The position numbers and the translations under genes were made by a program. The notes below the pieces were generated by a model. It saw only the letters and a list, made by a program, of their open reading frames with translations, had not been told where the DNA came from and did no database searches. Positions 7,750 to 45,138 of a stretch of DNA of 45,138 bases are shown piece by piece. Source of the DNA: Bryobacteraceae bacterium (GTDB taxonomy: Bacteria > Acidobacteriota > Terriglobia > Bryobacterales > Bryobacteraceae); the NCBI GenBank assembly GCA_030041985.1, contig JASIAM010000008.1, positions 1 to 45,138 of the forward strand. Direction: 5' to 3'. Position 1 is the first letter of the stretch. Every line of letters begins with the position of its first letter.

Positions 7750-7937
7750 GACCCTCTCCTTATCCGGGCCTGGCGGGCCCTGGTAACCGACTTCATTCTA
7801 TACCGCGAAACCAGCAATCTGCGCAACCCCGGCGGCCCGCCTCAACGGGCCCATGTCCATGTCCACCGCGGACTTCACGCCATAGGCCGCGATAGAAGCA
7901 TTGCACCTCGGACTTGATAGGATAGAAGATTGCTCTT

Positions 7938-8669
7938 ATGGCTGATGACAAAAAAACAGTGCTGGTGATTAGTGCGCACGCCGCCGATTTTGTCTGGCGG
8001 GCAGGCGGCGCGATTGCGTTGTACGCGGATCGCGGATATCGCGTGCGAATTGTGTGCCTCTCCTTTGGAGAGCGCGGCGAATCCGAACGGCTGTGGAAGA
8101 TTCCCGGTATGACCGTCGAGAAGGTCAAAGAAGACCGTTGCACGGAATCCACGCGGGCGGCCCAGATTTTGGGCGCGGAGATCCGCTTTTTCGATATGGG
8201 CGACTACCCGATTGTGCCGAAAGAAGAAGACACCGTGGAATTGGTCAACGAGTTCCGCCTGAACAAGCCGGTGATCGTGCTCACCCATAGTTTCGAAGAC
8301 CCCTACAACATGGACCATCCGCTGGCCAACGACCTGACGCTGAAAGCTCGCGTGTACGCGCAGGCCTCGGGCTATCCCGCGAAGGGAAAAGGCAGCCAGG
8401 ACGATGCGCCGCCGGTGTTCATATTCGAGCCGCACCAGCCCGAGCAGTGTAATTTCAAACCGCAGGTGCTGCTGGACATCACCCCTGCGTGGGAACGCAA
8501 GCTGGAAGCCATGAAATCGATGGCGGCGCAGGAACATCTGGTGCGCTATTACACGGGATTGGGCGAGCGCCGCGGCGTGCAGGCCGTGCGCAATTCCGGT
8601 AAGCGCCATATCAAATACGCGGAGGCGTTCCAGCGGATTTATCCGCAGGTAACGAACGAACTGGCATGA
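7938..8669 (+). CDS. galB: 4-oxalomesaconate hydratase, GalB type (PIG-L/LmbE fold)
   Basis: A 243-residue PIG-L/LmbE-fold protein. Instead of the deacetylase motif HPDDE it carries [16 protein letters not shown], and it continues with [32 protein letters not shown] and IFEPHQPEQ, the pattern I know from GalB hydratases. GalB adds water to the 4-oxalomesaconate tautomer to give 4-carboxy-4-hydroxy-2-oxoadipate (CHA). It is zinc-dependent by family knowledge. The start follows a 188-bp gap divergent from the esterase. Its stop overlaps the next ATG (ATGA), and that next gene encodes the CHA aldolase, which strongly supports the assignment. A plain deacetylase is the less likely alternative. 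Confidence 0.88.
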
Positions 8670-31730: not shown

Positions 31731-32375
31731 ATGAGCCTTAGCGCGTATTTCGACGAATCGTCCAAAATCCTCCATATGGCTGGCCGGGCTTGGAGTGAGG
31801 TTCTCGTAATGGGGGCACTCGACGCGACCACCTCAGCCTTGCGCAATGGGAAGCCCGTATTGGTCTGCGGAAATGGCGGCTCGGCGGCAGATGCGATGCA
31901 TATCACCGGGGAGTTGGTTGGCCGTTTCTTGCTAGAGCGCCAGGCCCTGAATGTAATCTGTCTCGCCGCTAATCCCGCGGTGCTCACTGCATGGGCAAAT
32001 GACTACAGTTACGAAACGATTTTTTCTCGACAAGTGGAAGCCTACGGCCAGCCCGGCGCAGTTCTTATCGGCATCAGCACTTCCGGAAACTCCAAAAACG
32101 TAATCGCGGCCTTTCAGCGGGCGCGATCGCTCAGTATGAAGACTATAGCACTCACGGGCGAAGGGGGAGGACAACTTGCTCCACTGACCGATTACTTATT
32201 CGCCGTTCCTTCCCGGTCAACACCTTTGATCCAGCAGGCGCATATTTGCCTCTATCACTATCTTTGTGGCGCCATTGAGCAGGCGCTCGCTGAGCCAATC
32301 GGAACTGTGCTCGCCGATGAATTGGCCAACAAACAACGGGCTCACCGGAGCGCCGAAAAAGCCACCCACGAGTAG
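31731..32375 (+). CDS. gmhA: Phosphoheptose isomerase
   Basis: A 214-residue SIS-domain enzyme that converts sedoheptulose 7-phosphate to D-glycero-D-manno-heptose 7-phosphate for LPS core or S-layer heptose. The SIS substrate loop VCGNGGSAADAMHITGELVGR contains the zinc ligands His and Glu, ISTSGNSKNV is the phosphate-binding loop, and IQQAHICLYH supplies the Gln and His ligands with the spacing seen in E. coli GmhA. It is intact. The truncated tRNA-Ser lies 42 bp downstream and marks the edge of the conserved chromosome. Confidence 0.93.
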   Translation: MSLSAYFDESSKILHMAGRAWSEVLVMGALDATTSALRNGKPVLVCGNGGSAADAMHITGELVGRFLLERQALNVICLAANPAVLTAWANDYSYETIFSRQVEAYGQPGAVLIGISTSGNSKNVIAAFQRARSLSMKTIALTGEGGGQLAPLTDYLFAVPSRSTPLIQQAHICLYHYLCGAIEQALAEPIGTVLADELANKQRAHRSAEKATHE

Positions 32376-32417
32376 TGGCCGTGTCTCTGATTGATGGAAA
32401 TCAGGTAAGATGGGAGC

Positions 32418-32460
32418 GGAGGAATGGCCGAGCGGTCGAAGGCGGCGGTCTTGAAAACCG
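32418..32460 (+). tRNA. 5' half of tRNA-Ser(UGA), truncated in the anticodon stem
   Basis: GGAGGAA acceptor strand, TG, D-arm GCC...GGC, and anticodon stem-loop GCGGT-CTTGAAA-ACCG with anticodon TGA are all present. Directly after 32460 the sequence becomes ATTTCCCCACC. The last anticodon-stem pair, variable arm, T-arm and 3' acceptor strand are missing, and no T-loop GTTCGA follows. This is a tRNA gene cut at a typical anticodon-stem crossover site of tyrosine recombinases. It cannot be functional. It marks the left boundary of the mobile region. Confidence 0.85.
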
Positions 32461-32730
32461 ATTTCCCCACCATTCGCAAGCCGCACAATTTTAAGCAAAT
32501 CCTCTTGCTGGCCAGCGGTTTAGGCTGTCTTCCTTCTTCGCGCTGTTTTCACCGGATTTTCTTCTTTTTGACGGGTGAACTGTGTCAAAAGTGTGTCACT
32601 TGCCCATTTCGCGCGGCGGTACGGCACGTGTCACAGGTGCGGCGCGGAAGTTCCCTGTTTAGACTGCCTTCGGCCTGAATGTTCTGCTTCCGGCAAAGGC
32701 GATTTGAGGTTATGATGCCGGTGGGCCGGT

Positions 32731-32782
32731 CGGAGGACAGGGCAATGCAGGGATGCAACCCGAGCGCCGCACCGGAGGCCGG
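32731..32782. repeat. Imperfect long direct repeat, copy 1
   Basis: Begins CGGAGGACAGGGCAATGCAG and contains GCAACCCGAGCGCCG. It matches 35955-36006; the first 39 bases agree at 34 positions. The two copies bracket the antitoxin, the first coupling-protein fragment and the recombinase relic. Confidence 0.65.
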
Positions 32783-32851
32783 GGCTGGTCCGGCGTGGAA
32801 ACATGCCCTTCCGCTCTCTTTGGAGATAATGGAATCGGGAAGGCGATGGCC

Positions 32852-33085
32852 ATGAGCAATCTGCGAAACGAAATCGGCAGCCTGTCGGCGGCGGAAAAAT
32901 TTGAACTGCTCGACGCGGTATGGGAGAGCCTGGAAGCCGATGAACTCGCGCTGACGGAAGGCCAGCGCGAGGAACTGGACTATCGCCTGGGCCAGTACGC
33001 GCGCAACCCGGATGAAGTCATTCCTTGGGAGCAAGTCAGGGCGGGCCTGTTTAATGGGCCATGGGAAAACCTTCAATGGGGTTGA
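32852..33085 (+). CDS. Addiction-module component, antitoxin (RelB/ParD-like, unstable antitoxin family)
   Basis: A 77-residue helical protein with the family pattern SAAEKFELLDAVWESLEADE, then LTEGQREELDYRLGQYARNPDEVIPWEQVRAGL. Such antitoxins normally precede a RelE/ParE-type toxin. Here no toxin follows; instead a broken minus-strand gene lies convergent, overlapping the last bases. The ATG at 32852 has GGAAGG 8 bp upstream; the frame is open further 5' but that part is not protein-like. It is therefore an orphan antitoxin. Confidence 0.8.
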   Translation: MSNLRNEIGSLSAAEKFELLDAVWESLEADELALTEGQREELDYRLGQYARNPDEVIPWEQVRAGLFNGPWENLQWG

Positions 33086-33428
33086 TGGGGATTCGCAAGA
33101 GGGCCGATTTCTTCGCCCTCTTCCGAAAGAATACGTATCCGCTCAATGATGGGTTCTCCCCGTGCGGGCGGGTCGTATAGCCGGGAATGGAACTCGTGAA
33201 TGCGTTTGCGGTCCTCGGAGTCAATGGATTCCAAATCGTGCCCGAAGCGCATGTCCCGCAAATAGTGGTAGCTCGGATAAAAGGAACCTTGCAGTGCCGT
33301 GCGGATGTGCAGGCGTTTGGGATGTATCCCCCGAGCTGTCGCGGCGGTTCTTCCTCCTTTCCGCCTTCAGGCTCCTCCGGTGCGGGAGGCGGCGCATCAT
33401 CATCTTCAGGCAAGGTCACGCCTCCCAA
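33073..33428 (-). pseudogene. Frameshifted small protein with acidic N-terminus (unknown)
   Basis: The N-terminal frame (from 33428) reads MGGVTLPEDDDAPPPAPEEP and a basic/acidic stretch ending PPRQLGG. Skipping one base at a GGGGG run near 33326-33330 gives a long, protein-like continuation: IHPKRLHIRTALQGSFYPSY, HYLRDMRFGHDLESIDSEDR and IIERIRILSEEGEEIG, ending at the stop at 33073. The join at a homopolymer indicates a single-base frameshift. I do not recognise the family. Confidence 0.4.
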
Positions 33429-33568
33429 CGGACGCCAAAAGTGTAGGCGCTAAATCGCATTCGTTCAGACAATTTATTTCCGCACATCGGGAGGCGGCGT
33501 TTTCCACCCCCCTCAAGCGCATAACCAGATGAACCGGCCCTGACGGGCCGGGAATGAGAGGAATATAC

Positions 33569-33998
33569 ATGGAAGCACCCTTTAAAACTGAACCCAGGGA
33601 AGCGCCGCTAGATGCATCCCCCTCGGAGCGGCAGGCAGAACCGCTCGCGCCCGTCAACCGGCAACCCGCACCATGAAGCCTCGCGCGGCTTCTGGCAGTC
33701 GTTGGCTTTACATCCTCCGATGGTGGGCACGGCCATTGTCACGGACTGCATGTGCTCGGCGGTGGACGTGGCAAGCCTGGGCATCACCGCCCCATTCCTC
33801 TGGCTGATTGCGGGCCTATTCAACGGCGTCATCGTCTTCCTGGGCCAGCGGAAGTGGGCTGGGGATGACGCCGAAAGCGCCTTCATCAAGGCGCTCATCG
33901 TGGCGTTCCTGGTGGCGCTGCCTACGCCGTTCCCGGCATTCCTCACCGTTCCATCGGGCATCGTCGGAATGGTTCAGGCGCTGCGGAGGAAGTCATGA
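33569..33998 (+). pseudogene. Small two-helix membrane protein, probably frameshifted
   Basis: An ATG at 33569 with a strong site (GAGGAATATAC) opens a hydrophilic 35-residue frame, EAPFKTEPREAPLDASP and on, that stops at 33676. Another frame, open since 33612, carries SRGFWQSLALHPPMVGTAIV and hydrophobic helices APFLWLIAGLFNGVIVFLG and ALIVAFLVALPTPFPAFL, ending at 33998. Joined by one base shift near 33670 they form one plausible ~140-residue membrane protein. The last codons overlap the next ATG. Confidence 0.45.
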
Positions 33999-34366
33999 GT
34001 AAGCGACAAACCTTAACGCACAGAATGTTGACGTACGGACTGCTTGCAACCGCTCTGATGGTGACGGCGATGCAAGCAAGCGCACAGAACGTCACCGTGC
34101 GGGGGGCGGGAACGTGCGAGGCATATCTGGACGCGAAGCGCGATTCCGTCCAGGAAGCGACGAAAGATTTGACATGGCTGCTGGGATACCTATCGGGGCT
34201 GGCGGTCGCTAATCACGTGGACGTTCTCGGCAAGCGCGATAACGCCGATTTCATGCTCAAGTAGGTGGACACCTACTACGGGCTTTACCCGGCAAAGTAT
34301 CTGAGCGACGCGGGCGACCTGTACTACATGTTTCTCAAGGAACAGATGAAGGGTAATTCGAAATAA
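33995..34366 (+). pseudogene. Exported small protein interrupted by an amber codon
   Basis: Starts with a signal peptide (MLTYGLLATALMVTAMQASA) and continues VRGAGTCEAYLDAKRDS, LTWLLGYLSGLAVANHVDVL to a TAG at 34262-34264. The same frame then continues without break as VDTYYGLYPAKYLSDAGDLY and YMFLKEQMKGNSK to TAA at 34366. One base (TGG to TAG, restoring MLKWVDTYY) would repair it. The pattern resembles Rap1a/Tai-like small periplasmic proteins, but this is a weak match. Confidence 0.7.
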
Positions 34367-34387
34367 CCATCTTCAGGAGGAATCGTC

Positions 34388-34621
34388 ATGAGCAACCAAT
34401 CATTTTCGGAACAGCTTTGGAACGGCCTAGGCGATGCGATCACCGACATTCGCCAGAAAGTCGTAGAGGAACCCATGTATGGCCGCGCGGTCACGGATGG
34501 ACAGGACGGGCCGCGCTGGCCCGAGGCACAGGAACTGGAGCCGTCTTTCGGAAGCCACACGAAATCCATAGAGATGGAGCCGGAACGCGAACAGGCTCAG
34601 GATATTGACCTCGACCGCTGA
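34388..34621 (+). CDS. Small acidic protein of unknown function (77 aa)
   Basis: A hydrophilic protein, SNQSFSEQLWNGLGDAITDI at the start and a glutamate/aspartate-rich end (EMEPEREQAQDIDLDR). AGGAGGAATCGTC directly precedes the ATG, one of the best ribosome sites in the region, and a strong terminator follows, so this is probably a real gene even though no family is recognised. It lies immediately upstream of the coupling-protein fragment. Confidence 0.6.
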   Translation: MSNQSFSEQLWNGLGDAITDIRQKVVEEPMYGRAVTDGQDGPRWPEAQELEPSFGSHTKSIEMEPEREQAQDIDLDR

Positions 34622-34643
34622 AACGTTCGAGGTTCGTGAAGCA

Positions 34644-34691
34644 GCCCCGGCCAGCGTCCCGAAATGGGACGGGTGCGCCGGGGCTTTTTTT
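34644..34691 (+). terminator. Rho-independent terminator
   Basis: GCCCCGGC (34644-34651) pairs with GCCGGGGC (34677-34684); an inner stem GTCCC/GGGAC with loop GAAAT sits inside, and seven Ts follow (34685-34691). It ends the small-protein gene. Confidence 0.85.
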
Positions 34692-34712
34692 AACAGCAAA
34701 GGAAAAATCATC

Positions 34713-35345
34713 ATGCCGTTTGTAAGCAATCTTGATACGCTGCTGTTGCAGCTCTCGGCGCGCGATAATTTCACGCTCGGCCATGCCTGCCTGGGCGTGA
34801 ATGTCTTTGGGGGCATCGGGTCAGGCAAAACCTCCGGCTCCGGCAGGAGTCTCTCAGGAGCTTATTTGCGCGCCGGTTTCGGCGGGTTGGTAACTGCCGT
34901 CAAGCCCGGCGAAGTGGAACGCTGGCTTCGCTACGCCCATGAGCACGGGCGCGAAAAATCCATCATTCTCTTTGATGAAAACGAGGGTTCAACTTCCTCG
35001 CCTACGAGCTGGACCGCCAGGGCGTGGACGGCATCGGCACGGTGACGGAATGCCTCATGCGGATTCTCGAAGCCGCGAAGCGCGCGAGTCCTACGGCGAG
35101 TCAGCACGGCGGCGAGCCGTTCTGGGAGGATGCCACGCGGCAGACACTGCGCTATACGCTGCCGCCGCTCTATTCGGCAACCGGCTCGCTGTCGATTCCC
35201 GATATCATCCGCTTCGTCAACACCGCGCCCACCCGCATGAAAGACGTGACCAATCCCGACTGGCAAAACGGCTCGTTCATGTATTCGGTGATGGACGCGG
35301 CAACCCGTCACCCGCGAGTGCCGCTATCGCGCCAGGCGCTTACCG
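34713..35345 (+). pseudogene. Conjugative coupling protein (TraG/VirD4-like), copy 1: N-terminal fragment, frameshifted
   Basis: The ATG at 34713 (AAAGGA upstream) opens a frame with the P-loop VFGGIGSGKTSGSGRSL at ~33-49, then FGGLVTAVKPGEVERWL and IILFDENEG. At about 34986 one base is missing; the correct continuation FNFLAYELDRQGVDGIGTVT lies in the next frame and runs through PFWEDATRQTLRYTLPPLY and SLSIPDIIRFVNTAP to QALTD, where homology ends at ~35345. VirD4-type ATPases bring DNA to the type IV channel. The C-terminal half is absent, replaced by the recombinase relic. Confidence 0.75.
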
Positions 35346-35790
35346 ACTGCATTCCACTCCGTTAAGCCGCTTCGGAGCGTTTTTCTGCCTGATTTTCGGC
35401 AGGCTGTATGAGGACAGCACCGCTTTCTCGAGCATCTCGGTCCCCGCCCGCCGTGCTTCAATACTGCTTTGGGTATAGACATCGAGCGCCCACGCCGATG
35501 CCGTGGCCGCGCTGGTCGGCTGTGCTACCTTGGCCGCATGGCCGAGGCTCGCATGCGTGCGCCGGAGCACCTGGAAGTTGGCCCAGCCAAGCCCGACTTT
35601 CTCCAGCTTCGGCTTCATGTGCCGATACCAGACGTTATCCCGCCACATGGGTTTGGCCGGGTTCTCCGACTCGAACACCCAGGCGTCGGGGCTTGCCCCT
35701 TATCAGTTCCATCCAGTCGTGCAGAACGCTCGCGGTTTCTGGAGGAATGCCGACTTTTCTCTTGGAGGATGCGTTTTAGGATCGTCGATG
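35340..35790 (-). pseudogene. Degenerate tyrosine recombinase (phage-type integrase), C-terminal region
   Basis: Reading on the minus strand across three frames gives KVGIPPETASVLHDWMELIRG, then ASPDAWVFESENPAKPMWRD, NVWYRHMKPKLEKVGLGWAN, FQVLRRTHASL, ADQRGHGIGVG and ALDVYTQSSIEARRAGTEML. These are the integrase catalytic-domain blocks, including RTHASL (R..H), the GH segment and the VYTQSS region corresponding to the tyrosine. Frame changes lie at ~35695, ~35530 and ~35488, the last two compensating each other. No N-terminal or first-arginine region survives. Confidence 0.75.
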
Positions 35791-35954
35791 TCACCACGGT
35801 AAAGCCGCTGCTCAATAATGATCTCACTGCAATCCGCCGCGTGAAGTGAACCCCTAGGCTAAGACACAAAGTTAAGGGGGGGCGCCGTCCGCGATAGATC
35901 ATTGCACGGCGACATAGTTGTCGTCCACTCTGGAATTACCTGAGCTTACCTGAG

Positions 35955-36006
35955 CGGAGGATAGGGCACTGCGGGAACGCAACCCGAGCGCCGACTCAGC
36001 GGCCGG
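35955..36006. repeat. Imperfect long direct repeat, copy 2
   Basis: Begins CGGAGGATAGGGCACTGCGG and contains GCAACCCGAGCGCCG; partner of 32731-32782, 3,224 bp away in the same orientation. The rest of 35791-36088 shows no recognisable gene. Confidence 0.65.
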
Positions 36007-36088
36007 AATGGCACGGGGGCGGGTGCAGCCCGCTCCCCAAAAATCAGCCATTCTGGCGGTAAGGCGTAAAATTCCGGAGGCTTGGGGG

Positions 36089-38095
36089 GTGCGTCCGAGA
36101 GGACTTGATGGACTTGTTGATTGAAAGGAATCAACTCGGGTAATGACTCGCTCACCCGGTAGCCTGATCCCCTCTGATTCGGGGCAACCCGGTTCGGAGA
36201 AGCGGGATGACAAAGCCTTCAAGTGTCGGCAGGAGGGCGAGGCGAATCTGCGGGCCGCAACACAAGTGAACGCCGTTACAGCACCGTCAACCCCACCAGC
36301 GATCACACCGATTCAGCTGGATTTATTCCCGGGGCGAGCCTGTCCCCTAAAGGCGAAGCCTGCTACGACTCGGAATACAGCGAGAATGGACCCGAGCCGC
36401 CGAGACGGTGTATCGGGCGGTGGCACGCAGAGACAGACCATCGAGTTAACCGGAGAGACCCTGTTCGGTCCGGCGGATGCTACTCCGCGCGGTAGGGAAG
36501 CGTATAAGGGGAGAACCCGAAAGCGCAGCAACGAAGCCGGGCAGGGGATCGGAGGTGGCCACAGTACCGAAGAACTTCGGGAAAACCGGAGGGAGGGAAG
36601 GGCCGCTGCTTTCATCAAGCGAGCCAAACAGGGAAAGGCAGCCGGACTGCCCCCGCAAGGGAAAGCTCAACCCCGGCCCAATCGAGCGAAGCGCAAAGCG
36701 CCAGCGAGATTAGACAATGCCCGCAAACTGCAACGGACGCTATACCGAGTGGCCAAGCAACAACCGGAAAGGAGGTTCACGCTTCTCTACGATAAGGTTT
36801 GTCGGCAGGACATCCTGCGCGAAGCCTGGCATCGGGTGAAGTCCAACAAAGGGGCGGCGGGAGTGGATCAGGTGGATATCGACGCCATCCGCGAATACGG
36901 CGAAGATCGGTTCCTGAGCGCAGTTGAACGGGAACTACGGAGCCGGCGATACCGGACAGCGTTGGTGCGCCGCGTTCATATACCGAAGCCCGGACAACCG
37001 GGCAAGACTCGGCCGTTGGGCATCCCGACAGTGAAGGACCGACTGGTGCAGATGGCGGTGAAGTTGGTGATCGAGCCATTGTTCGAGGCCGACTTCATGC
37101 CCTGTTCATTCGGATTCCGCCCGAAGAAGACGCCGCGGATGGCGCTGGGCGCGATTGTGCAAAGCGTCAACGAGGGGTATTCGTTCGTGGTGGACGTTGA
37201 CTTGAAATCCTACTTCGACACGATTTCGCACGAACTGCTTCTAAAGTTGGTGGAATGTCGCGTCGGAGATGTTCAAGTTCTGCGGCTGATCCGAGCTTGG
37301 CTGAAAGCGGGAGTTATGGAGGAAGGCAAGGTGACTCACCCGGACCGAGGTTCTCCTCAGGGCGGAGTGATCTCGCCGACGCTGTCCAACATCTTTCTGC
37401 ACGAGGTAGACCGTCAATGGTGCCGGAGCGACGGAGTCGCCCTCGGCAACGTACGGCTGGTCCGTTATGCGGACGATATGGCTCTGCTGGCGCGGACGGC
37501 AGGCACGGGAGGCGTGGGAGCAACTGCAGTCTCAGTTTGCCGCTCTTCGACTGGTGGTGAACCAGGAGAAGAGTCGGTTGACGACACTGGCGGAAGGTTT
37601 CGCGTTTCTTGGCTTCGAGTTCTGGAAAGCTCCGGGGCGGATGCTGTTAATGTGGCCGCGCGAAAAGGCGTGCCGCCATATCCGTCAACGGGTCCGCGAA
37701 GTAGTGCGATCGTTTCCGTCAAACGGGAAGGTCGGCGTGGTGATCCAGAAGCTGAACCCGATCCCGAATGGGTGGCGTACCTATTTCCGGGTCTGCAACA
37801 GCAACCGGACATTCCATGCGGTGGACTGGGCCGTTCGGAGCGAAGTGCAGCTTTGGCTTCGGCGTAAGCACCAGTGCCCCTGGCGGACTGCCAAGAAACG
37901 ATGGGGGTATCACTTCCTGCACGACCGATGTCGGCTGTACCAGATGGTTGGGAAAGTGAGCCACTTGGAAGGATTGCGGCGCAAGCCGCCGGAAGAAGAT
38001 GATCGGAGACCCGGATGCGGGAAAACCGCACGTCCGGTTCGATGAGGGGGTGCAGGAAACGAGCGACATCGCGGCGCGCCTGCGCCCTACTCTAC
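36089..38095 (+). mobile_element. Group II intron
   Basis: The 5' end GTGCGTCCGAG (36089) fits the GUGYG intron start. A reverse-transcriptase ORF follows. Domain V is at 38006-38040 (CCGGATGCGGGAAAACCGCA then CGTCCGGTTC), followed by GATGAGGGGG and a domain VI ending in CCTACTCTAC at 38095. Relative to the usual GAGCCGG start of domain V, this copy reads GAGACCCGG, two extra bases next to the catalytic AGC region, so it may be inactive. The flanks joined together form a hairpin (TTGGGGG/CCCCCAA). End points are estimated from consensus motifs. Confidence 0.8.
36143..38045 (+). pseudogene. ltrA: Group II intron reverse transcriptase/maturase, frameshifted
   Basis: The first frame (to 37867) contains KLQRTLYRVAKQQPERRFTL, NKGAAGVDQVDI, RPLGIPTVKDRLVQMAVKLV, the RT blocks FVVDVDLKSYFDTI and SPQGGVISPTLSNIFL, and the catalytic YADD in VRYADDMALLA. 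At about 37490-37505 one base is out of frame; the continuation REAWEQLQSQFAALRLVVNQ, FAFLGFEFWKA, the maturase region LNPIPNGWRTYFRVCN and the end KTARPVR lie in the neighbouring frame to 38045. There is no HNH endonuclease domain. The true start within the first ~120 residues is unclear. Confidence 0.85.
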
Positions 38096-38129
38096 CAGCG
38101 CCCCCAATGGAGAAGGACGCGAATCTTCC

Positions 38130-38500
38130 TCATTGACTGGCCCCGCCGTTCTGCTCGAATTCTTCCGGGGGCAGATAGCCGAGCGCTGAGTGCAACCGCT
38201 TCTGGTTATAAACTCGTTCTAAGAATTCGCCAATGCTGGCGTGAGCTTCGTTGAAATCGCGGTATTCGTTTCGATAAACCTCCTCACATTTCAGGGTCTT
38301 CATGAAAGATTCACAGGCCCCATTGTCATATGGGTTACCCTTGCGGCTCATGCTGATGGTGGCCTGATGTTGTTGGAGTAGTTCGGTGTATTCTTGCGAT
38401 GCATATGGCACGCCGCGGTCGGAGTGATGTACCAAGCCTGGTCCCGGTTGCCGCTCCGCCAAAGCCATGCGCAATGCGGTTACGGACAGTCCGGCTCACT
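38130..38500 (-). pseudogene. IS3-family transposase OrfB, C-terminal fragment
   Basis: Codes for the last ~125 residues of an IS3-group DDE transposase: ALRMALAERQPGPGLVHHSD (second catalytic Asp), RGVPYASQEYTELL, SMSRKGNPYDNGACESFMKT (catalytic Glu in CESFMK), and YNQKRLHSALGYLPPEEFE. The IS right end is near 38134 (TGACTGGCCCC). On the other side it is cut at ~38500, where coupling-protein sequence begins; the first Asp and OrfA are missing. Confidence 0.88.
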
Positions 38501-39621
38501 GTCACCGAGGCTTTAATGCACGTCATCGACGCGGCCAGGAAAGCAAGGCCCGATGCTGCTCGCGGCGGCGGCGGGTCGTTTTTCTGGGGGGACGCGACCC
38601 GCGAGACGCTACGCTACACCATTCCGCCGCTCTAACCGTGCCGAAGGCACGGTGAGCATTCCGGCCATTATCCGCTTCGTGTCCACGGCTCCCAAGTCCC
38701 GCGCCGAGGTCACGAGCCGGGAATGGAAGGAGCGCTCCTTCATGTACGGCAAGCTGATGCGCAGCGTCCCGAAAGTCCGCATGGACGAACGAACGCTTGG
38801 CAACGCGGTCGCGTTCTGGTCGGAGCGATGGGCGGGGATGGACGAGCGCACCCGGTCGAACGTGATGAGCACGATCACCGCCACGCTCGACAGGTTCAAC
38901 CACGGGCGGCTTCACCGCATGTTCTGAGATGTTCGCTTCTGGAACGTATGATTTCACGCCCGAGCAGATAACCCATGAACGCAAACTGGTCATCCTCGAT
39001 ATCCCCGTCCTGCAGTACGGTCGCGAGACCTCACGGCTGATGCAGATCCTGGTCAAGCTCGTTTGCCAGCGCCAGTGGCTAAGTCACGCCTATAAGCCTG
39101 GCTGCTGCAACGGCGCTGTGCTCGTTCAGGACGAATTTCAGATGCTGATGTCGCGCTTTGAAAATCACTTTGTCCAGGTCTGCCGCGGCAGCGCGATTGT
39201 GCCCATATTTGCAACCCAGACCATACTGAATCTCGCAGAGGAAATGGGCGAGCAACAGCCCGGCCCCAAGAGTAAAGCCTTTCTCAATAACCTCAGCATT
39301 AAGATTGCCCATAACTCCGCTGGCTGCCCCGATACATGTACTTGCCTGGCCGATACGATCGGCAGGGCATACCGCTATATCGACGGTTTCAATGTCGGCG
39401 AGGGCGACGGCGGTCACACCCATAGGGGCATTAGCGGTCAAAAGCAGCTGGTGCATATCGTCGAGCCGATTGAATTCACGCGCCTAATGGCTCCCGATGG
39501 CCAGAATCCATACGCTGAGGCGATTGTCTATCTCGGAGGCAAGTCCTTCAACGTAACCAAAACGGAGAACAATCCGCACGGGCGCAATTACGTGAAAGTA
39601 ACCTTCTCGCGCGACATCTGA
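38500..39621 (+). pseudogene. Conjugative coupling protein (TraG/VirD4-like), copy 2: C-terminal part, multiply broken
   Basis: It begins mid-gene (TVTEALMHVIDAARKARPDA) at the IS3 junction and is paralogous, not identical, to the end of copy 1. A lost base at ~38633 splits SFFWGDATRETLRYTIPPLY from NRAEGTVSIPAIIRF. A 10-bp insertion at ~38919-38934 with the direct repeat ATGTTC causes a stop after HRMF; the frame then continues from 38929 with ASGTYDFTPEQITHERKLVI, Walker-B-like VLVQDEFQMLM and FATQTILNLAEEMGEQQP to 39621. The last ORF alone is 230 residues. Confidence 0.75.
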
Positions 39622-39634
39622 AAGGAAAAACAAC

Positions 39635-40406
39635 ATGATGCCATCCGCAGCAAAAGCGCAACAGCCAACTTCCATCGATCACTGGCAAGACCAGATGATC
39701 AACATCACCTATAACATCTGCTCCATTGTCACCATGCCGGTGGAATTAGCGTTACGACCGTTCCACGGGACGCGATATTTTCCGCCGCTGGTGATGCTCT
39801 TCGGTATGGCCATGATGCTCATCGTCCCCCACGTTTTTCAGCGTCGTCGGAGCCGTCGGCAACATGATTCCCTTTCACCGCGTTCAGTCCTCTTTCGGGA
39901 TGATCGGCATATGGGGCCTTTCCAAGTTGTTCTTCCTCGGCCTCGCCATTCATGGCTTCCGCAAATGGAGGCTTATGATGCACCCCGAAATGGAAGAGAA
40001 CAGCTACTATTCGGGCCCTCCCCTCTTTTTCTTCAACCTGCTTCCAAGAGCTTCTTTCTGGCGTATCCGGATTATCTATGAGCCGTTGTTTCTGCTTGTA
40101 CTTTCCGGCGTTCTGCCCAACTTTTTTATCCTGGAACCCGCCGCCGGCAACTTCCTTCTGATCTCCGCCATTTTCCTCGCGATGAAAAACTACACGCGCT
40201 GGTACATGGAGTGGGAGTTTATCCGAAACATCATGGACGCAAAGTTCATGGGGCCGAAGCTCGCTCACATCGCCGAACACGGAGCCAACGATGAAGACCT
40301 TGGCGTTATCAACATGGCGAGCTTCCCCAAAGATCTGCCGCCCGACGTCCATAAGGCAACTATCAAGCACATCGCGCGGATCTTTTCCGCGAACGATTCC
40401 GACTGA
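39635..40406 (+). pseudogene. Conjugation-associated membrane protein, frameshifted in a T run
   Basis: Starts at 39635 with RBS AAAGGAAA upstream. The first frame has MINITYNICSIVTMPVELAL and a helix YFPPLVMLFGMAMMLIVPHVF, then leaves frame at a TTTTT run near 39834-39838. With one T fewer the sequence continues SVVGAVGNMIPFHRVQSSFG, then helices IWGLSKLFFLGLAIHGF, IIYEPLFLLVLSGVLPNFFI and FLLISAIFLAMKNYTRWYM, ending at 40406. About 256 residues in total with 4-5 helices. It follows the coupling-protein gene by 13 bp, so a transfer role is likely. Confidence 0.6.
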
Positions 40407-40425
40407 CGAGGGGAAACACAACACA

Positions 40426-41019
40426 ATGAACCCGAAAACAAAGAAAGTCCTTCTCATCTGCGCAGCGATTATCATCGGCTCCGATATCGCGCGCTCGTTT
40501 GTCACGTCCTACATGCGCATGGTTTACGCACGGCAGGAGGCCATCAGGGAAGCGCAGAAACCAAAGCCCGCAGTTCCAACCCCAGATCCGGCGGAAGCCG
40601 CCATCGTCAAGGAAGCAGAAGCCTTGGGCAATCTCTCCGGCGTCTGGGAAGGGCGCGGCAGCACATCCAGAGGCATGTGCAACCTTCGGCTTGAGCTGAA
40701 GCAGGGCGATCCGGGAAGGTACACGGGCTACTCCCGCTTCTCCTGCGTTCCCGTGCAGTCAATGCTCGACGCCCCGAAAAACGCCAACACCATGGTCAAC
40801 CTGATGCAGAACATGAATCCGGACGCCGCAATTCTCACGGGAACGATAGAGAAAGGCGCGATCCACCTGCATACGGAGAAATCCATCGGTGCAGATATCA
40901 ATGGCTGCTCGGTGAGCGAGCTGACCATCACGCCCTTTGGAGCCAGCGGTCTGGTGGCTGAGTGGAAAGAGGGAACCTGCGAAGGCGGCAACCTCATGAT
41001 GCAGAGGGCAGTCCGATGA
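40426..41019 (+). CDS. Membrane-anchored protein of unknown function (197 aa)
   Basis: N-terminal anchor KKVLLICAAIIIGSDIARSF, then a short helical/proline-rich linker (QKPKPAVPTPDP) and a ~120-residue beta-rich extracytoplasmic domain (NLSGVWEGRGSTSRGMCNLR; GRYTGYSRFSC; NPDAAILTGTIEKGAIHLHT) with several cysteines. The domain resembles generic lipocalin-like or calycin sheets, but I recognise no family. The ATG at 40426 is chosen because the protein begins cleanly there; the frame is open further upstream. Its stop overlaps the next start (ATGA). Confidence 0.7.
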   Translation: MNPKTKKVLLICAAIIIGSDIARSFVTSYMRMVYARQEAIREAQKPKPAVPTPDPAEAAIVKEAEALGNLSGVWEGRGSTSRGMCNLRLELKQGDPGRYTGYSRFSCVPVQSMLDAPKNANTMVNLMQNMNPDAAILTGTIEKGAIHLHTEKSIGADINGCSVSELTITPFGASGLVAEWKEGTCEGGNLMMQRAVR

Positions 41020-41171
41020 CGACCATCCGCGTCATTTTTGCGGGCTTTGCGGGCACGATGATTCTCTCCGTTGTGATGATCTTCGTTACGATGCCCCACG
41101 GCGCCGCCGCCAAAAAGACCGTTCCGCCCCCGTGCGCATGCAAGTGCATGAGGAAGGCAGGTGCTCAGTGA
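41016..41171 (+). CDS. Tiny membrane protein with cysteine-rich C-terminus (51 aa)
   Basis: One transmembrane helix (VIFAGFAGTMILSVVMIFVT) followed by KKTVPPPCACKCMRKAGAQ, with three cysteines in CACKC. The ATG overlaps the upstream stop (ATGA) and its own stop overlaps the next GTG start (GTGA). This translational coupling on both sides is the main reason to believe it. Function unknown; the Cys cluster could bind metal or form disulfides. Confidence 0.6.
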   Translation: MTTIRVIFAGFAGTMILSVVMIFVTMPHGAAAKKTVPPPCACKCMRKAGAQ

Positions 41172-41437
41172 AAGTCGTGCGCGCCCACGATGTTTTGCCG
41201 GAGCCGCCGATTACTGATGGAGATGCGCTCCGGCTCATGACAATCGCCGAGGTTGCCTCCGAGTTGCGCTGCTCCAAAGGGCACGTGCAGAATCTCATTC
41301 GGGGGCGGGTGCCCAGCCTGCTCCCCCTTCCCGTCCTGCACATCGGTAGGCGCATGCTCATCAGGCGCCAGGCGCTTTTGCGCTGGATGGTGGCGCTCGA
41401 AAACCGCCCAGTCTTGTCCCGCTCACATAGAGATTAG
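41168..41437 (+). CDS. Helix-turn-helix protein, excisionase/MerR-like (89 aa)
   Basis: A small DNA-binding protein with LMTIAEVASELRCSKGHVQN (helix-turn-helix), a wing (VLHIGRRMLIRR) and QALLRWMVAL, the excisionase/AlpA-like pattern used by integrative elements to direct excision or control transfer genes. The GTG at 41168 overlaps the preceding stop. It is the last gene of the intact small operon 40426-41437. Confidence 0.78.
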   Translation: MKVVRAHDVLPEPPITDGDALRLMTIAEVASELRCSKGHVQNLIRGRVPSLLPLPVLHIGRRMLIRRQALLRWMVALENRPVLSRSHRD

Positions 41438-41439
41438 AC

Positions 41440-41595
41440 GTGAGGCGACTGGTAAACACGATACTGTTCGGCGACTGCCGGACCCTGCTTGCGTCGATGC
41501 CAACCGGCATCGCCAGGACGTGCGTTACCAGTCCTCCGTACTACGGGCTCCGCGATTACGGCGTTCAAGGCCAAATCGGCCTGGAAGCGAGGTGA
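41440..41595 (+). pseudogene. DNA methyltransferase, N-terminal stub (51 codons)
   Basis: From a GTG two bases after the HTH stop, the frame reads VNTILFGDCRTLLASMPTG, then CVTSPPYYGLRDYGVQGQIG and a stop at 41593. SPPYYGLRDYG is motif IV (S/D-PP-Y) of N4-cytosine/N6-adenine DNA methyltransferases, with the following GQIGLE block typical of the family. The rest of the enzyme is absent; the following DNA belongs to the RepA relic. It is a truncated gene, perhaps formerly protecting the element from restriction. Confidence 0.75.
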
Positions 41596-41655
41596 TCTTT
41601 GCACCATACACTTCCACCGGGTGTGCCGCCCCGTGGACACCACAAAAACAATTCC

Positions 41656-42590
41656 ATGGAGAGCGCCGGCTCCATCCTGTCCCAGCTCCACGCCGACCTC
41701 ATCATTTCCAAGCAGAAGCTCGATAAAATCAACGGCATCGAACTTGTCCGCCTCAAACGGGAGCAGGCCAACCAATCTCTCTGTTTCAGTTCGCGCCCCT
41801 TCGTCCTATGCGGACTACCGGTCCGACGGTTACCCAATGACCAGCTCTTATACGAGCGGCGTAACGGCAACTTCATTCTCCAGATTACCGGGCATCCCAA
41901 TTCGGCGTGCCCTTCGGTCAGGATCGCATCGTGCCCATCTTCTTGGCCACGCTCGCGGTCCAGCAGAAAAGTCAGGTAATTCGCTTTCGCTCCGCCGCCG
42001 AGATGCTGGAAACCTTCGGCATGCACAAGGGCGGCAAGGAATACCGGCGTTTGGTGGCCGCCTTCGAGCGGAGCTTCGGCGCTACCATGTTCTTTGGCAC
42101 GGACACCCTGCACAATAGAGCCAAAGTCGTCCATCGTTCCCGATTCAACTTCCTGAGGGAAGCACAGATCTGGTACAACCGCGCGCAGAATCAACCAGTG
42201 CTTTCGGAGGAATTCGAGAACGTGATCGTGCTCAGCGACGAGTTCTACCAGGAAGTTATGGCGCACCCGATCCCCACCGATCTGGAAGCCATTCGGCTGC
42301 TGGCGGGGCGCCGGCAGTTTGGATCTGTTCATGTGGCTGGTTTACCGTTGCTTCGTGGCCAGACGGGAGGAGCAGATTCCGCTGTTCGGAGACTTCGGCT
42401 TGACCGCGCAATTGGGATCGGTTGAGTACACAAGGCCCGGGCGTTTTCGCGCCATGCTGCAGCAATGGCTCTCTACTATTCACCTGGTCTGGCCGGAGTG
42501 CCCTGCCAGAATCTGCCCCGACGGCCGGTACCTCTCGGTCGCACCGGGAAAGGCGATTTTAGAGCGGGCGGAAACACATGGCGGGAACCC
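41656..42590 (+). pseudogene. RepA-family plasmid replication initiator, frameshifted twice
   Basis: The first frame from ATG 41656 gives SQLHADLIISKQKLDKINGI, SSRPFVLCGLPVRRLPND and YERRNGNFILQITGHP. One base is off near 41897; the next frame gives QFGVPFGQDRIVPIFLATLA, FGMHKGGKEYRRLVAAFERS and LSDEFYQEVMAHPIPTDLEA. A second shift near 42308 leads to DLFMWLVYRCFVARREEQIP, LFGDFGLTAQLGSVEYTRP and HLVWPECPARICPDGRYLSV. These blocks match RepA initiators of plasmids and integrative elements in order. After the last block the frame stays open into the DnaA-like gene. Confidence 0.78.
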
Positions 42591-42648
42591 ACGCCATGGT
42601 CCGGGCGCAAGTCGCCATTGTCGACGGGCAATCCCCAAGGAGCCTCTG

Positions 42649-43122
42649 ATGTTTGCGCCTGATCGCCGACATCAATCGTTGTCTCGTGTGCCCTTGGCAA
42701 CTATTGACCGGGTGGTGTCGGTCCGGCTGGGGCCGACCCGGGTCAAAGGCAACGCACAACCGGCTGCCTTCAACCGGCAAGTGGCCATGTACCTGGCGAA
42801 GCATGTGGGCGATTGGAGCACGCCGCGGATCGGCAAGTTCTACAACGGCCGACATCATACGACAGTATTGTGGGCTGTGAAGCGCATTTCGACAATGCGG
42901 ACGCGTGATCCCGAACTGGACGGGCTACTCTCCGTTTTGACACAGGAGATTCGATCACTGCCGAACGGTCCTCCAGGGGACGACAGACTAAGACTGCGCA
43001 GGTTCACACAGCCGCTGTTTCCGTGCGGGTTAGAAGAGGAGGTTCTGGACGCCCTAGCAGATCGTATCGTTGAGCGGCTGAAGTACGAGGCGTTCATTGC
43101 AGGGCTGAGATTCGAATCGTAG
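42649..43122 (+). CDS. Stand-alone DnaA domain-IV-like DNA-binding protein (157 aa)
   Basis: The core at residues ~44-100 (NRQVAMYLAKHVGDWSTPRI, then GKFYNGRHHTTVLWAVKRI) is the DnaA C-terminal DnaA-box-binding domain: helix-turn-helix followed by the DHTTV-type signature, here RHHTTV. There is no AAA+ domain. A separate helical tail ends in EEEVLDALADRIVERLKYEA. The ATG at 42649 has AAGGAG 6 bp upstream, so it is likely translated independently although the upstream RepA frame runs into it. It may bind an element origin with RepA or compete for host DnaA boxes. Confidence 0.8.
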   Translation: MFAPDRRHQSLSRVPLATIDRVVSVRLGPTRVKGNAQPAAFNRQVAMYLAKHVGDWSTPRIGKFYNGRHHTTVLWAVKRISTMRTRDPELDGLLSVLTQEIRSLPNGPPGDDRLRLRRFTQPLFPCGLEEEVLDALADRIVERLKYEAFIAGLRFES

Positions 43123-43707
43123 GACCGTCGGCGTAGACCAAATACCCCCAATCCGGGTCGAGAGTATTCGATCGATTGAAATCGTTGATAGCTAGGTTTA
43201 TCTGGTCAGTCCCGTAATCCGAAAAGTGCGGGTTCAAAGAAGATGGGAATCCTGCTCCCTGAAGCAAGTCGTAAGGCGGATTAACGTCGAGAGCCCAGTA
43301 GCTTTTATCAAAGGAGCCAACAGCCGGGTAGTTGCTGCTTATCGTTTCAAAGCGGACTCCTTGGACAGTGGGGTGTCTTCCACGTAAATGTTGAGGTACC
43401 CGAGCGTTGAAAACGTCAGTGGTCCCGTTGCGGTCTGAAAGGTCATGGTCACACCATCAGTAGCACCCGAACACTGAAACTCGGAAACAGTCGAAGAGCT
43501 GCCATAAAGTGCGCAACTACTCGAATTTGCGCTGACAGAATATGTCATTGTGTCGCCAACTTGGATTGGAGAAACCAAGGGATATCCGGGTGTATTAGTT
43601 GCATCATACACGAGGCCAACTGTCGACGTGATTGTGAAGTTCACCGTATCGGCGTACATAGCCGGCGCCAACAACAGAAAGAACATGAGCGAATGTGTTG
43701 CTTTCAT
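43094..43707 (-). pseudogene. Exported protein, frameshifted
   Basis: The start at 43707 has AAAGGAGG 5 bp upstream and a signal peptide (SLMFFLLLAPAMYA), followed by DTVNFTITSTVGLVYDATNT and two cysteines (CALYG, FQCSG). The frame stops at 43339, but one extra C in the CCCC run near 43371 restores a long continuation, VQGVRFETISSNYPAVGSFD, PPYDLLQGAGFPSSLNPHFS and NTLDPDWGYLVYADGPTIRI, to a TGA at 43094. This end overlaps the DnaA-like gene by 29 bp. Family unknown. Confidence 0.65.
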
Positions 43708-43970
43708 CTTGCCTCCTTTAGCCTGAGCCGGTTCAGCGTGGTGTTACGGGCTAAACTGGGATTTTCCTCTTTTGCGTTTCCCAGACTCTCGTACGGGGAT
43801 ATTGTACGTCTGATCGCTCCGATTTGGTACTGGGCGATGAGATCGCTCAGGCCACACCGCTCATCCAACTCGCGCACCAAAATCAGGCCACCGGCGGAGG
43901 TCACCCGTGATCCTTGGAAATCCACCTTCAGCGCGGGGTTGAAGGACAGTTGAAATGGCTGATTTGTCTC
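43704..43970 (-). pseudogene. IS1380-family transposase, N-terminal remnant
   Basis: The minus strand reads QPFQLSFNPALKVDFQGSRV, then TSAGGLILVRELDERCGLSD and LIAQY, the N-terminal signature of IS1380 transposases. After that the sequence changes to IGAIRRTISPYESLGNAKEE and stops at 43704, with none of the catalytic DDE core. It seems to be a left end joined to other DNA by a large internal deletion. A ribosome site for the exported gene lies inside its last codons. Confidence 0.65.
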
Positions 43971-44154
43971 TCACCCATTGGGTATTGCCCTCCTGAACGT
44001 CTCTATGCGGTCGAAACCAGCATGAATAAAGGCGGCCGGCTATGTCAGGAGGTTATCGAAGAAGTCGTCAAAATGGAAACCCAGGATGAATTCACGAAAG
44101 CTGTCAGCGGGCGATATTCTCCGCCGACGCCAAGGCGCAGCGCGCCGCCAAATG

Positions 44155-44184
44155 AAAAAAAGGCAGGGTCCTTACGCCCCTGCT
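44155..44184 (-). terminator. Rho-independent terminator on minus strand
   Basis: GCAGGG (44178-44183 read in reverse) and CCCTGC form a 6-bp stem; seven Ts (As at 44155-44161 on plus) follow in the minus direction. No intact minus-strand gene lies upstream, so it probably served a lost gene. The surroundings (43971-44343) show nothing else. Confidence 0.5.
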
Positions 44185-44343
44185 TCCCTTTTCCGCCGAT
44201 TCCTGCCTAATTCGCGGCCAGATGCCCCCTCCCCCGCAGAAACTCTCTCCCGACACGCCCGACTCGCTTGACGCGGTCGCGGATCAACTGTACAGTTCCG
44301 ATTATTGAACTGGAGAGCTTCCAAATGCTGCGAGAGGGCAAAA

Positions 44344-44563
44344 GCGATCCATCGTCGTCTCCGCCCTGCGCGCCCGCGCTAATCTTGGCAAGCTCAGGCC
44401 GTACTCCTCAGCATTCGCGATTACGTGCGGCTTGCCGCTCCAGAGCCGGAAGTGCTCAGGGTAATAGGAGGAGTCGCGACGCAAGGGCCCCGACAAACTC
44501 ACCTCACGGGAAATTGATCAGGAAAGCAAGGCCGCGCGCGCCGCCCGGCGCAAGCTCGAATGA
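44344..44563 (+). pseudogene. Phd/YefM-type antitoxin relic
   Basis: The plus strand reads RSIVVSALRARANLGKL, then after a missing middle block QAVLLSIRDYVRLAAPEPEV and LRVIGG, and after a frame change RRKGPDKLTSREIDQESKAA and RAARRKLE to TGA at 44563. SALRARxxLG and AVLLSIRDY...APEPEVL are hallmarks of Phd/YefM antitoxins. The region with the central strand (normally RGxPQ) is deleted. It is non-functional. Confidence 0.6.
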
Positions 44564-44604
44564 TTCCGCTCTGGCTCGTCGTTGACACCTACGAGCGTCG
44601 ATAG
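44560..44604 (+). pseudogene. PIN-domain toxin stub (14 codons)
   Basis: An ATG overlaps the antitoxin stop (ATGA) and reads IPLWLVVDTYERR before a TAG. VVDT is the first catalytic strand of PIN-domain RNases (normally VVDTN). With the overlapping Phd relic it is the remainder of a toxin-antitoxin pair. Confidence 0.5.
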
Positions 44605-44855
44605 ATTCTGGGCGGACCCCTTCGCAAAACTTCAACCAGCGACTTGCTGATTAAATTTTACGTACAATCCGGTTTCTAAATAACCCTTCGCGGCGCACTC
44701 AAATCGTCGGCTCACATCTGTCGACATTTTTTAAACACTTTTATGGAAACTGCAAATCACTATCCGGCGCTATTGTACATGATCGAGCTTTTGGAACAAA
44801 GCGCCCCGGCACTCAAGGGTGCGCGACCGCAGAATGACGATTTTGCGAGTGCTCC

Positions 44856-44886
44856 GTTATATAGCGATTTTCTGAACGTATATAAT
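44856..44886 (+). promoter_or_regulatory. Inverted repeat GTTATATA/TATATAAT with a consensus -10
   Basis: GTTATATA (44856-44863) and TATATAAT (44879-44886) are near-perfect inverted copies around 15 bp. TATAAT at 44881-44886 equals the -10 consensus, 21 bp before the ATG of the last gene. It could be the promoter and operator of that gene, or part of an IS end. The -35 box is not clear. The rest of 44605-44855 shows no feature. Confidence 0.4.
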
Positions 44887-44906
44887 ACGTGCAGAGGAGC
44901 GCGCCC

Positions 44907-45138
44907 ATGCCATCGTCCTTATCCGAATTGGAACAGCAGCGATCCGTGTTGGCCTCCCAACTGTCCCAGTTGGGCGACCTTCGTCCCGGATCCGTCACTG
45001 GCATCGTCCGTCGTTGCGGCAAACCCAGCTGTCATTGTGCTCAACCCGAGGATCCGGGCCACGGCCCCACTCTTCGCCTCACCTATAAAAGTCAAGGCAA
45101 GACGATCAGTGAAGCTTTGCCAACTCCGGCTTCGGTGC
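44907..45138 (+). CDS. DUF6788-like protein, N-terminal part (runs off window)
   Basis: The visible 77 residues are PSSLSELEQQRSVLASQLSQ, then LGDLRPGSVTGIVRRCGKPS and CHCAQPEDPGHGPTLRLTYK. The short coiled start followed by GDLRPGS...RRCGKP.CHC.....GHGP is a pattern I associate with DUF6788 proteins; such genes often accompany transposases in soil bacteria. The CxxxCxC and His residues may bind metal. GAGGAG lies 7 bp upstream of the ATG. The 3' end is outside the window. Confidence 0.65.
   Translation, partial: MPSSLSELEQQRSVLASQLSQLGDLRPGSVTGIVRRCGKPSCHCAQPEDPGHGPTLRLTYKSQGKTISEALPTPASV

Follow-up and report, generated by a model that had tools for sequence, protein, structure and literature searches.

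Results

A serine tRNA gene that stops at the anticodon stem

The window, by which we mean the whole stretch of 45,138 nt analysed here, is an entire contig (C46) of a draft genome that comprises 6,007,379 bases in 355 contigs and is 98.17% complete. It carries the first 43 nucleotides of a tRNA-Ser(UGA) gene, preceded by a gene for a SIS-domain protein and followed by DNA with mobile-type genes (Table 1). The tRNA half consists of the 5' strand of the acceptor stem, the D arm, the 5' strand of the anticodon stem and the loop CTTGAAA, and it ends at the ACCG of the anticodon stem. A tRNA-Ser(UGA) with a perfect 5' half and a cut at the anticodon stem was what the original prediction had described, and both points held, as the half is identical to the intact tRNA-Ser(UGA) of relatives. 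ARAGORN found no complete tRNA in the whole window.

Table 1. Features around the junction and along the island part of the window
Feature	Position	Strand	Evidence or remark
Gene for a SIS-domain protein, the nearest gene upstream of the tRNA half	31731..32375	+	Pfam SIS_2 7.5e-25; probably on the host side
TAAGAT, resembling a -10 box, ahead of the stranded tRNA half (putative promoter)	32406..32411	+	Sequence; similar A/T-rich boxes there in relatives
tRNA-Ser(UGA) nt 1-43, stranded host 5' half (probable)	32418..32460	+	Junction after 32460; same break in G044 and G201
Island sequence on the window contig	32461..45138	.	Homologous end, mobile-type genes; integrase end probably beyond the contig end
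Integrase-distal island end	32461..32610	+	Homology with the G201 and G044 ends
Pair of TGTCA sites 11 bp apart, probable arm-type integrase sites	32583..32598	+	Offsets +123 and +134
Third TGTCA site	32629..32633	+	Offset +169; TGTCA at +170 in G044 and +169 in G201
ORF with addiction-module component domain	32753..33085	+	Pfam Unstab_antitox 5e-13; TIGR02574 9.3e-13
Group II intron	36117..38095	+	Rfam RF02003 69.2 bits, RF00029 43.9 bits
Reverse transcriptase ORF, 574 aa, in the group II intron	36143..37867	+	RVT_1 3.1e-26
ORF with TraG/TraD C-terminal domain match	38929..39621	+	Pfam TraG-D_C 1.4e-5, 25.4 bits, cut-off 22
Helix-turn-helix ORF, possible excisionase or regulator	41132..41437	+	HTH_17 4.3e-9; phrog_66 3.3e-5
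ORF with DnaA C-terminal DNA-binding domain	42319..43122	+	Bac_DnaA_C 2e-12

The half was matched in 55 of the 61 genomes searched (its own genome and 60 relatives). Several relatives have 43-46 identical bases in common with it, which excludes a chance match. Beyond its own genome, matches extended past query position 48, which corresponds to window position 32460, only in G044 (contig C7) and G006 (contig C144). When 29 relative loci were scanned with ARAGORN, an intact tRNA-Ser(UGA) was found in 27; the two exceptions were a locus in G044 (L039) that is broken at the same base and a locus (L041) that is cut by the end of its contig. Orthologues of the SIS-domain protein are present in 140 of 150 genomes of the family, its own genome counted. 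A promoter-like motif found upstream of several 5' halves also resembles the native upstream sequence of tRNA-Ser, and we drew no conclusion from it.

The sequence behind the junction and its gene content

The DNA that follows the break is homologous to the DNA that follows the same tRNA half in two relatives. Identity to the G201 end was 71.3% over 136 nt (global score 12.2 SD above shuffles) and to the G044 end 61.3% over 124 nt (5.5 SD above shuffles). These homologous island ends confirmed the integration junction that had been predicted at the anticodon stem. The window thus holds a 5' piece of tDNA, ending in the anticodon region, and then island DNA, the arrangement that marks a 5'-fragment island.

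The genes on this part of the contig (addiction-module component, group II intron, TraG-type, helix-turn-helix and DnaA C-terminal) suggest a mobile element without pointing to one particular kind. The reverse transcriptase of the intron scored 292.9 bits against TIGR04416, slightly below the cut-off of 300. For conjugation genes, the TraG/TraD C-terminal match was the only one, with no relaxase or secretion family in the ORFs scanned of this incomplete island, and there were too few supporting genes to call the element an ICE or a prophage. Comparison of 18 island ORFs with Pfam revealed no integrase on the 12.7 kb of island seen, and ARAGORN found no tRNA there. The G+C content, 0.569 before the junction and 0.579 after it, does not mark the island.

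Island ORFs of at least 70 aa were also compared with 15 stretches from relatives. They matched only over the tRNA and the junction itself, with the exception of one 114-aa ORF (38130-38474, minus strand) that is 33% identical over 87 aa to a sequence in G185. Apart from ORFs that lie over the junction itself, no proteins were in common with the G044 or G201 stretches compared.

Short conserved sites at island ends

Within the homologous end, TGWCA sites lie +122/123, +133/134 and +169/170 nt after the break in all three distal ends of islands at tRNA-Ser (window, G044 and G201). In G044 and G201, the first two are at offsets equal within 1 nt and read TGACA. The G044 end has two extra TGWCA sites, at +46 and +282. 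In each of the five relatives examined, the integrase side has TGRCA sites at 95-100, 84-89 and 42-45 nt upstream of the tRNA; the middle one reads TGGCA in two of the five. We take the site pairs spaced by 11 bp on both sides to resemble the arm-type integrase sites of lambda-type systems. By this layout, seen in three of three distal ends, the sites in the window qualify as putative arm-type sites.

Compared with G044 and G201, both sites of the distal pair in the window have T in place of the same A (TGTCA, not TGACA). This could be a change matched by one in the integrase of the window island, which would lie outside the sequence seen.

Islands in relatives, two of them each on a single contig

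In G044, the broken half is located at C7:350382, whereas C1:27573 holds a tRNA-Ser(UGA) that is intact. Between the stop of a gene for a tyrosine integrase of 345 aa (Phage_integrase 2e-26) and this intact tRNA lie 43 nt. The two tRNA copies have 65 nt in common with a single mismatch, a stretch that starts 22 nt ahead of the tRNA and reaches nt 43. G201 shows the same arrangement: the broken half is found at C2:6333-6399, and C70 has the intact tRNA-Ser(UGA), 42 nt behind an integrase, the copies having 44 identical nt. We infer that each of these pairs of ends, although located on different contigs, bounds one island.

We compared 14 integrase-linked tRNAs, each with 80 nt on either side, with the surrounding DNA. 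Four of these tRNAs have a second, partial copy of the 5' half: in G044 it covers nt -21 to 43 (98.5% identity), in G201 nt 0 to 43, in G178 nt 1 to 40 and in G059 nt -3 to 40 (100% identity in each of these three). The four second copies have the same orientation, and all end in the 3' side of the anticodon stem-loop. For the other ten tRNAs there was no second half in the surrounding DNA compared, which was often a short contig.

The islands in G178 and G059, which have related integrases, each lie on one contig with paired repeats at both ends. In G178, an exact repeat of nt 1-40 of tRNA-Lys(UUU) is placed 6186 bp upstream of the intact tRNA, and in G059 an exact repeat of nt 1-40 of tRNA-Leu(CAA) plus 4 nt is placed 5493 bp upstream. 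The integrase gene ends 33 nt (G178) and 16 nt (G059) before the intact tRNA. Both islands contain replication-type genes: one has an AAA_25 gene, the other DUF3631 together with a DnaG-type zinc ribbon. Overall, the integrase stop codon lies 16-47 nt before the tRNA in all eight relatives measured.

The original prediction had proposed to compare the locus with a relative that lacks the element. We found none that combines the upstream gene seen here with an empty site. Five upstream proteins gave no match to the tRNA-Ser loci of relatives that were compared, and ARAGORN detected no tRNA in the 11 loci scanned out of 30 loci of SIS orthologues that were fetched. When the joined flanks of the G059 island were searched in 81 genomes, the matches listed outside G059 lay only in or near the tRNA part.

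Several other contigs contain parts of tRNA-Leu genes. Two of them (L209, G171 C16; L211, G179 C14) end at 40-52 nt that match the 5' part of tRNA-Leu, as expected if the att repeat breaks assemblies. At L208 (G241 C311), in the region of about 6273-8051, an intact tRNA-Leu(CAA) is preceded at a distance of 1.7 kb by a diverged tRNA-Leu 5' part, perhaps a decayed island. At L210 (G242 C242, about 1970-2010) and L213 (G170 C67, about 4907-4949) 5' parts of tRNA-Leu stop at the anticodon stem and other sequence follows; these are likely further junctions of the same kind. The split tRNA-Leu match at L212 (G145 C161, about 1122-1276) is a sequence gap, a run of N in the record, and was rejected as an insertion.

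The integrase family and its orientation to the tRNA

A search of 201 genomes for integrases like that of G044 (E <= 1e-30) yielded 17 loci in 15 genomes. As read from adjacency, the 5' end of a tRNA faces the integrase in nine loci and the 3' end in six, and two loci have no nearby tRNA. One carrier of a close relative of this integrase, G064, belongs to the same family as the genome of the window. A scan of further genome records gave 15 loci. All five whose integrases are at least 60% identical to that of G044, among them G044 itself and G064, face the 5' end of a tRNA-Ser, either Ser(UGA) or Ser(GCU). The ten distant loci (at most 35% identity) had no adjoining tRNA according to ARAGORN, and one of them has three tRNAs about 700 nt or more away. 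In 542 phage records the G044 integrase had relatives only under 60% identity. In 2486 plasmid records two matches fell in the 60-80% band and the others were lower, 28-32% among the matches listed.

On a maximum-likelihood tree of 18 integrases, five switches of orientation are required (3-5 in bootstraps), and well-supported branches force at least two of them. Since shuffled orientation labels did as well in 277 of 500 cases, orientation is not clustered overall on the tree. One clade (support 100/99) unites an integrase of G185, at the 5' end of a Ser(UGA) tRNA, with one of G157, at the 3' end of a Ser(UGA) tRNA. In L090 (G185, 1456-2720) the 5' end of the tRNA lies 20 nt after the integrase stop codon, and in L095 (G157, 1142-2418) the stop codon abuts the 3' end of the tRNA. 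Among the 14 integrase-linked tRNAs compared, four in the 5' orientation have a matching remnant, and no remnant was found for the 3' orientation.

Search of the own genome for the missing parts

The original prediction proposed to search the genome for the 3' half of the tRNA, and named the lack of a second tRNA-Ser(UGA) in a complete genome as the result that would speak against it. Elsewhere in the assembly, neither a 3' half nor a further copy of the 5' half was found. All 32 matches to the tRNA model in this genome were read by ARAGORN; the only serine tRNA among them is Ser(GCU), and an intact tRNA-Ser(UGA) is absent from these 32 matches of the draft. The best match to the 3' half and flank of a relative was 30 nt at the end of tRNA-Ser(GCU), with an E value of 0.0035. 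An 18-nt exact match to a tRNA 3' end upstream in the window, at 13700-13717, lies inside a 734-aa ORF and extends beyond the tRNA end into the flank of the single relative used as query; we took it as chance. Because the genome is a draft of 355 contigs and the window contig stops inside the island, the lack of the 3' half and of a second tRNA-Ser(UGA) does not decide the matter. UCA makes up 20 of the 247 serine codons in seven flanking ORFs, so a tRNA for UCA is expected. Most simply, the missing piece of the tRNA sits in an unassembled part of the genome, and the tRNA-Ser(UGA) gene is most likely displaced and not lost.

An integrase of the G044 family was not found in this genome, where the search gave six weak matches, the best with 30% identity and an E value of 4.7e-10. 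The wider search for the integrase family gave 13 matches, none on the window contig, and none of them could be assigned to the window island. The attachment-site pattern, with up to three mismatches allowed, returned only the copy in the window.

For six of the 13 integrase-domain matches there is a tRNA gene no more than about 650 nt away, always with its 3' end towards the integrase. They are found on C144, C178, C194, C212, C240 and C332, beside Ala, Thr, Met, Cys, Phe and Val tRNAs. Judged by these positions of integrases and tRNAs, the genome has several ordinary tRNA islands.

Discussion

Very probably, the half in the window is the 5' end of the host's own tRNA, left at the integrase-distal end of a tyrosine-integrase island whose crossover lies in or beside the anticodon loop, the tRNA being rebuilt at the far end from a 5' half that belongs to the island. 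The evidence consists of the broken tRNA, the homology of the island end to two other islands, the layout of the sites, and the arrangement of half, integrase and intact tRNA in four relatives, in two of them on a single contig. From these we infer the integrase end of the window island, the rebuilding of the tRNA there, the swap of promoters and the exact crossover.

In the mechanism that we propose, the attP of the island would hold, next to the stop codon of the integrase, a copied 5' half of the tRNA. Through recombination in the anticodon stem-loop, this half would be joined to the 3' half of the host, so that a full tRNA would be rebuilt at the far, integrase end and would be read from upstream sequence brought by the island. 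The old 5' half of the host, with its TAAGAT box, would be stranded at the other end and would point into the island. Excision would be the reverse of the integration.

The original prediction had the tRNA destroyed, by a later deletion or with its 3' half displaced to the far end. Neither its destruction nor a deletion is needed, since the island most likely carries a tRNA 5' half and strands the one of the host; in the islands with homologous ends, the new 5' half beside the integrase completes the 3' half of the host. The displaced 3' half agrees with our model but did not turn up in the draft assembly. By analogy with these islands, the half in the window can be regarded as an ordinary by-product of such integration.

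Alternatively, the island may have broken the tRNA without rebuilding it and may carry a whole tRNA-Ser(UGA) gene elsewhere, as in the tRNA-dependent lysogeny described for actinobacteriophages (PMC10865867). There too, integration at a tRNA gene leaves a broken tRNA, but according to that account the phages carry a whole tRNA and nothing is rebuilt, whereas the relatives here rebuild the tRNA. The unseen part of the island could hold such a gene; however, the 12.7 kb on the window contig are without a tRNA, and relatives with homologous ends have the rebuilt tRNA directly behind the integrase, which makes this improbable.

We consider it quite unlikely that an island once inserted here and has since lost the rebuilt tRNA or its far end to deletion, leaving the cell without tRNA-Ser(UGA). 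An assembly with neither a 3' half nor a second tRNA-Ser(UGA) is what such decay would leave. Against it speak the perfect 5' half, the intact layout of the sites and the use of UCA codons in the flanking ORFs, and the genome is a draft.

Misassembly, in which the true tRNA locus was joined to an island end from another place or cell, has very little to recommend it: the genome is a draft of 355 contigs, and two contigs of other genomes (G171 C16 and G179 C14) end right at tRNA repeats of this kind, but the same junction with homologous flanks occurs in independent genomes. Hardly credible, finally, is a short tRNA-like RNA with an acceptor stem of its own, in which the 5' half pairs with TTTCCCC followed by ACCA; the Rfam tRNA model does align the half in this way (26.5 bits at 32418-32469), yet the score is under the gathering score of 29, and pairing as good or better was found in 11%, 3%, 46%, 7% and 33% of random 25-nt stretches of the same sequence (window, G044, G201, G178 and G059, respectively), and we therefore treated the pairing as chance and rejected a mini-tRNA.

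With the stranded host half as the preferred reading, the window island is of an uncommon but known type, a 5'-fragment tRNA island with the anticodon sublocation. Of the 3919 islands that Islander lists, 3760 have a 3' tDNA fragment and 159 have a 5' fragment (Hudson, Lau and Williams, PMC4383910). The 5'-fragment islands described there likewise have a tyrosine integrase and a target tRNA split at the anticodon region, with the 5' fragment upstream and the intact tRNA rebuilt at the other end, as the relatives show. As far as that description goes there is no difference in kind; the window's own integrase and rebuilt tRNA would lie beyond the sequence seen. The ordinary 3'-fragment islands of Islander share the reaction and the target class, but in them the 3' half comes with the island and the tRNA keeps the promoter of the host. 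Fragments of tRNAs left by integration are reported to be widespread (PMC9897764).

Use of the tRNA 5' half is described for pTN3-like archaeal integrases, with the promoter of the integrase driving the rebuilt tRNA; the same review calls such use seldom met in bacteria (PMC8371274). For pTN3 itself, the rebuilt tRNA-Leu is reported to be separated from its original promoter (PMC5495485). In these accounts integration of the archaeal elements splits the integrase gene, whereas in the bacterial relatives here the integrase ORF is whole and stands beside the rebuilt tRNA.

On a wider proposal our judgement is evenly balanced. One integrase family would have switched more than once between the 5' and the 3' half of tRNA genes, the anticodon stem-loop being near-symmetric and only the order from integrase end to core being fixed. 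Insertions of the 5' mode would swap the upstream region of the host tRNA, and successive islands may reshuffle the expression of tRNA-Ser.

Half tRNAs of this kind should not be taken for lost genes or decay. What looked like a puzzling broken tRNA gene becomes a mapped island end, of the kind that 159 of the 3919 islands in Islander have. For a bacterial family of 5'-type tRNA islands, the mapped end provides an attachment site, core and arm sites included, that can be tested. With this integrase family one can also ask what decides which half of a tRNA an integrase takes, and what becomes of a host tRNA gene that is given a foreign upstream sequence.
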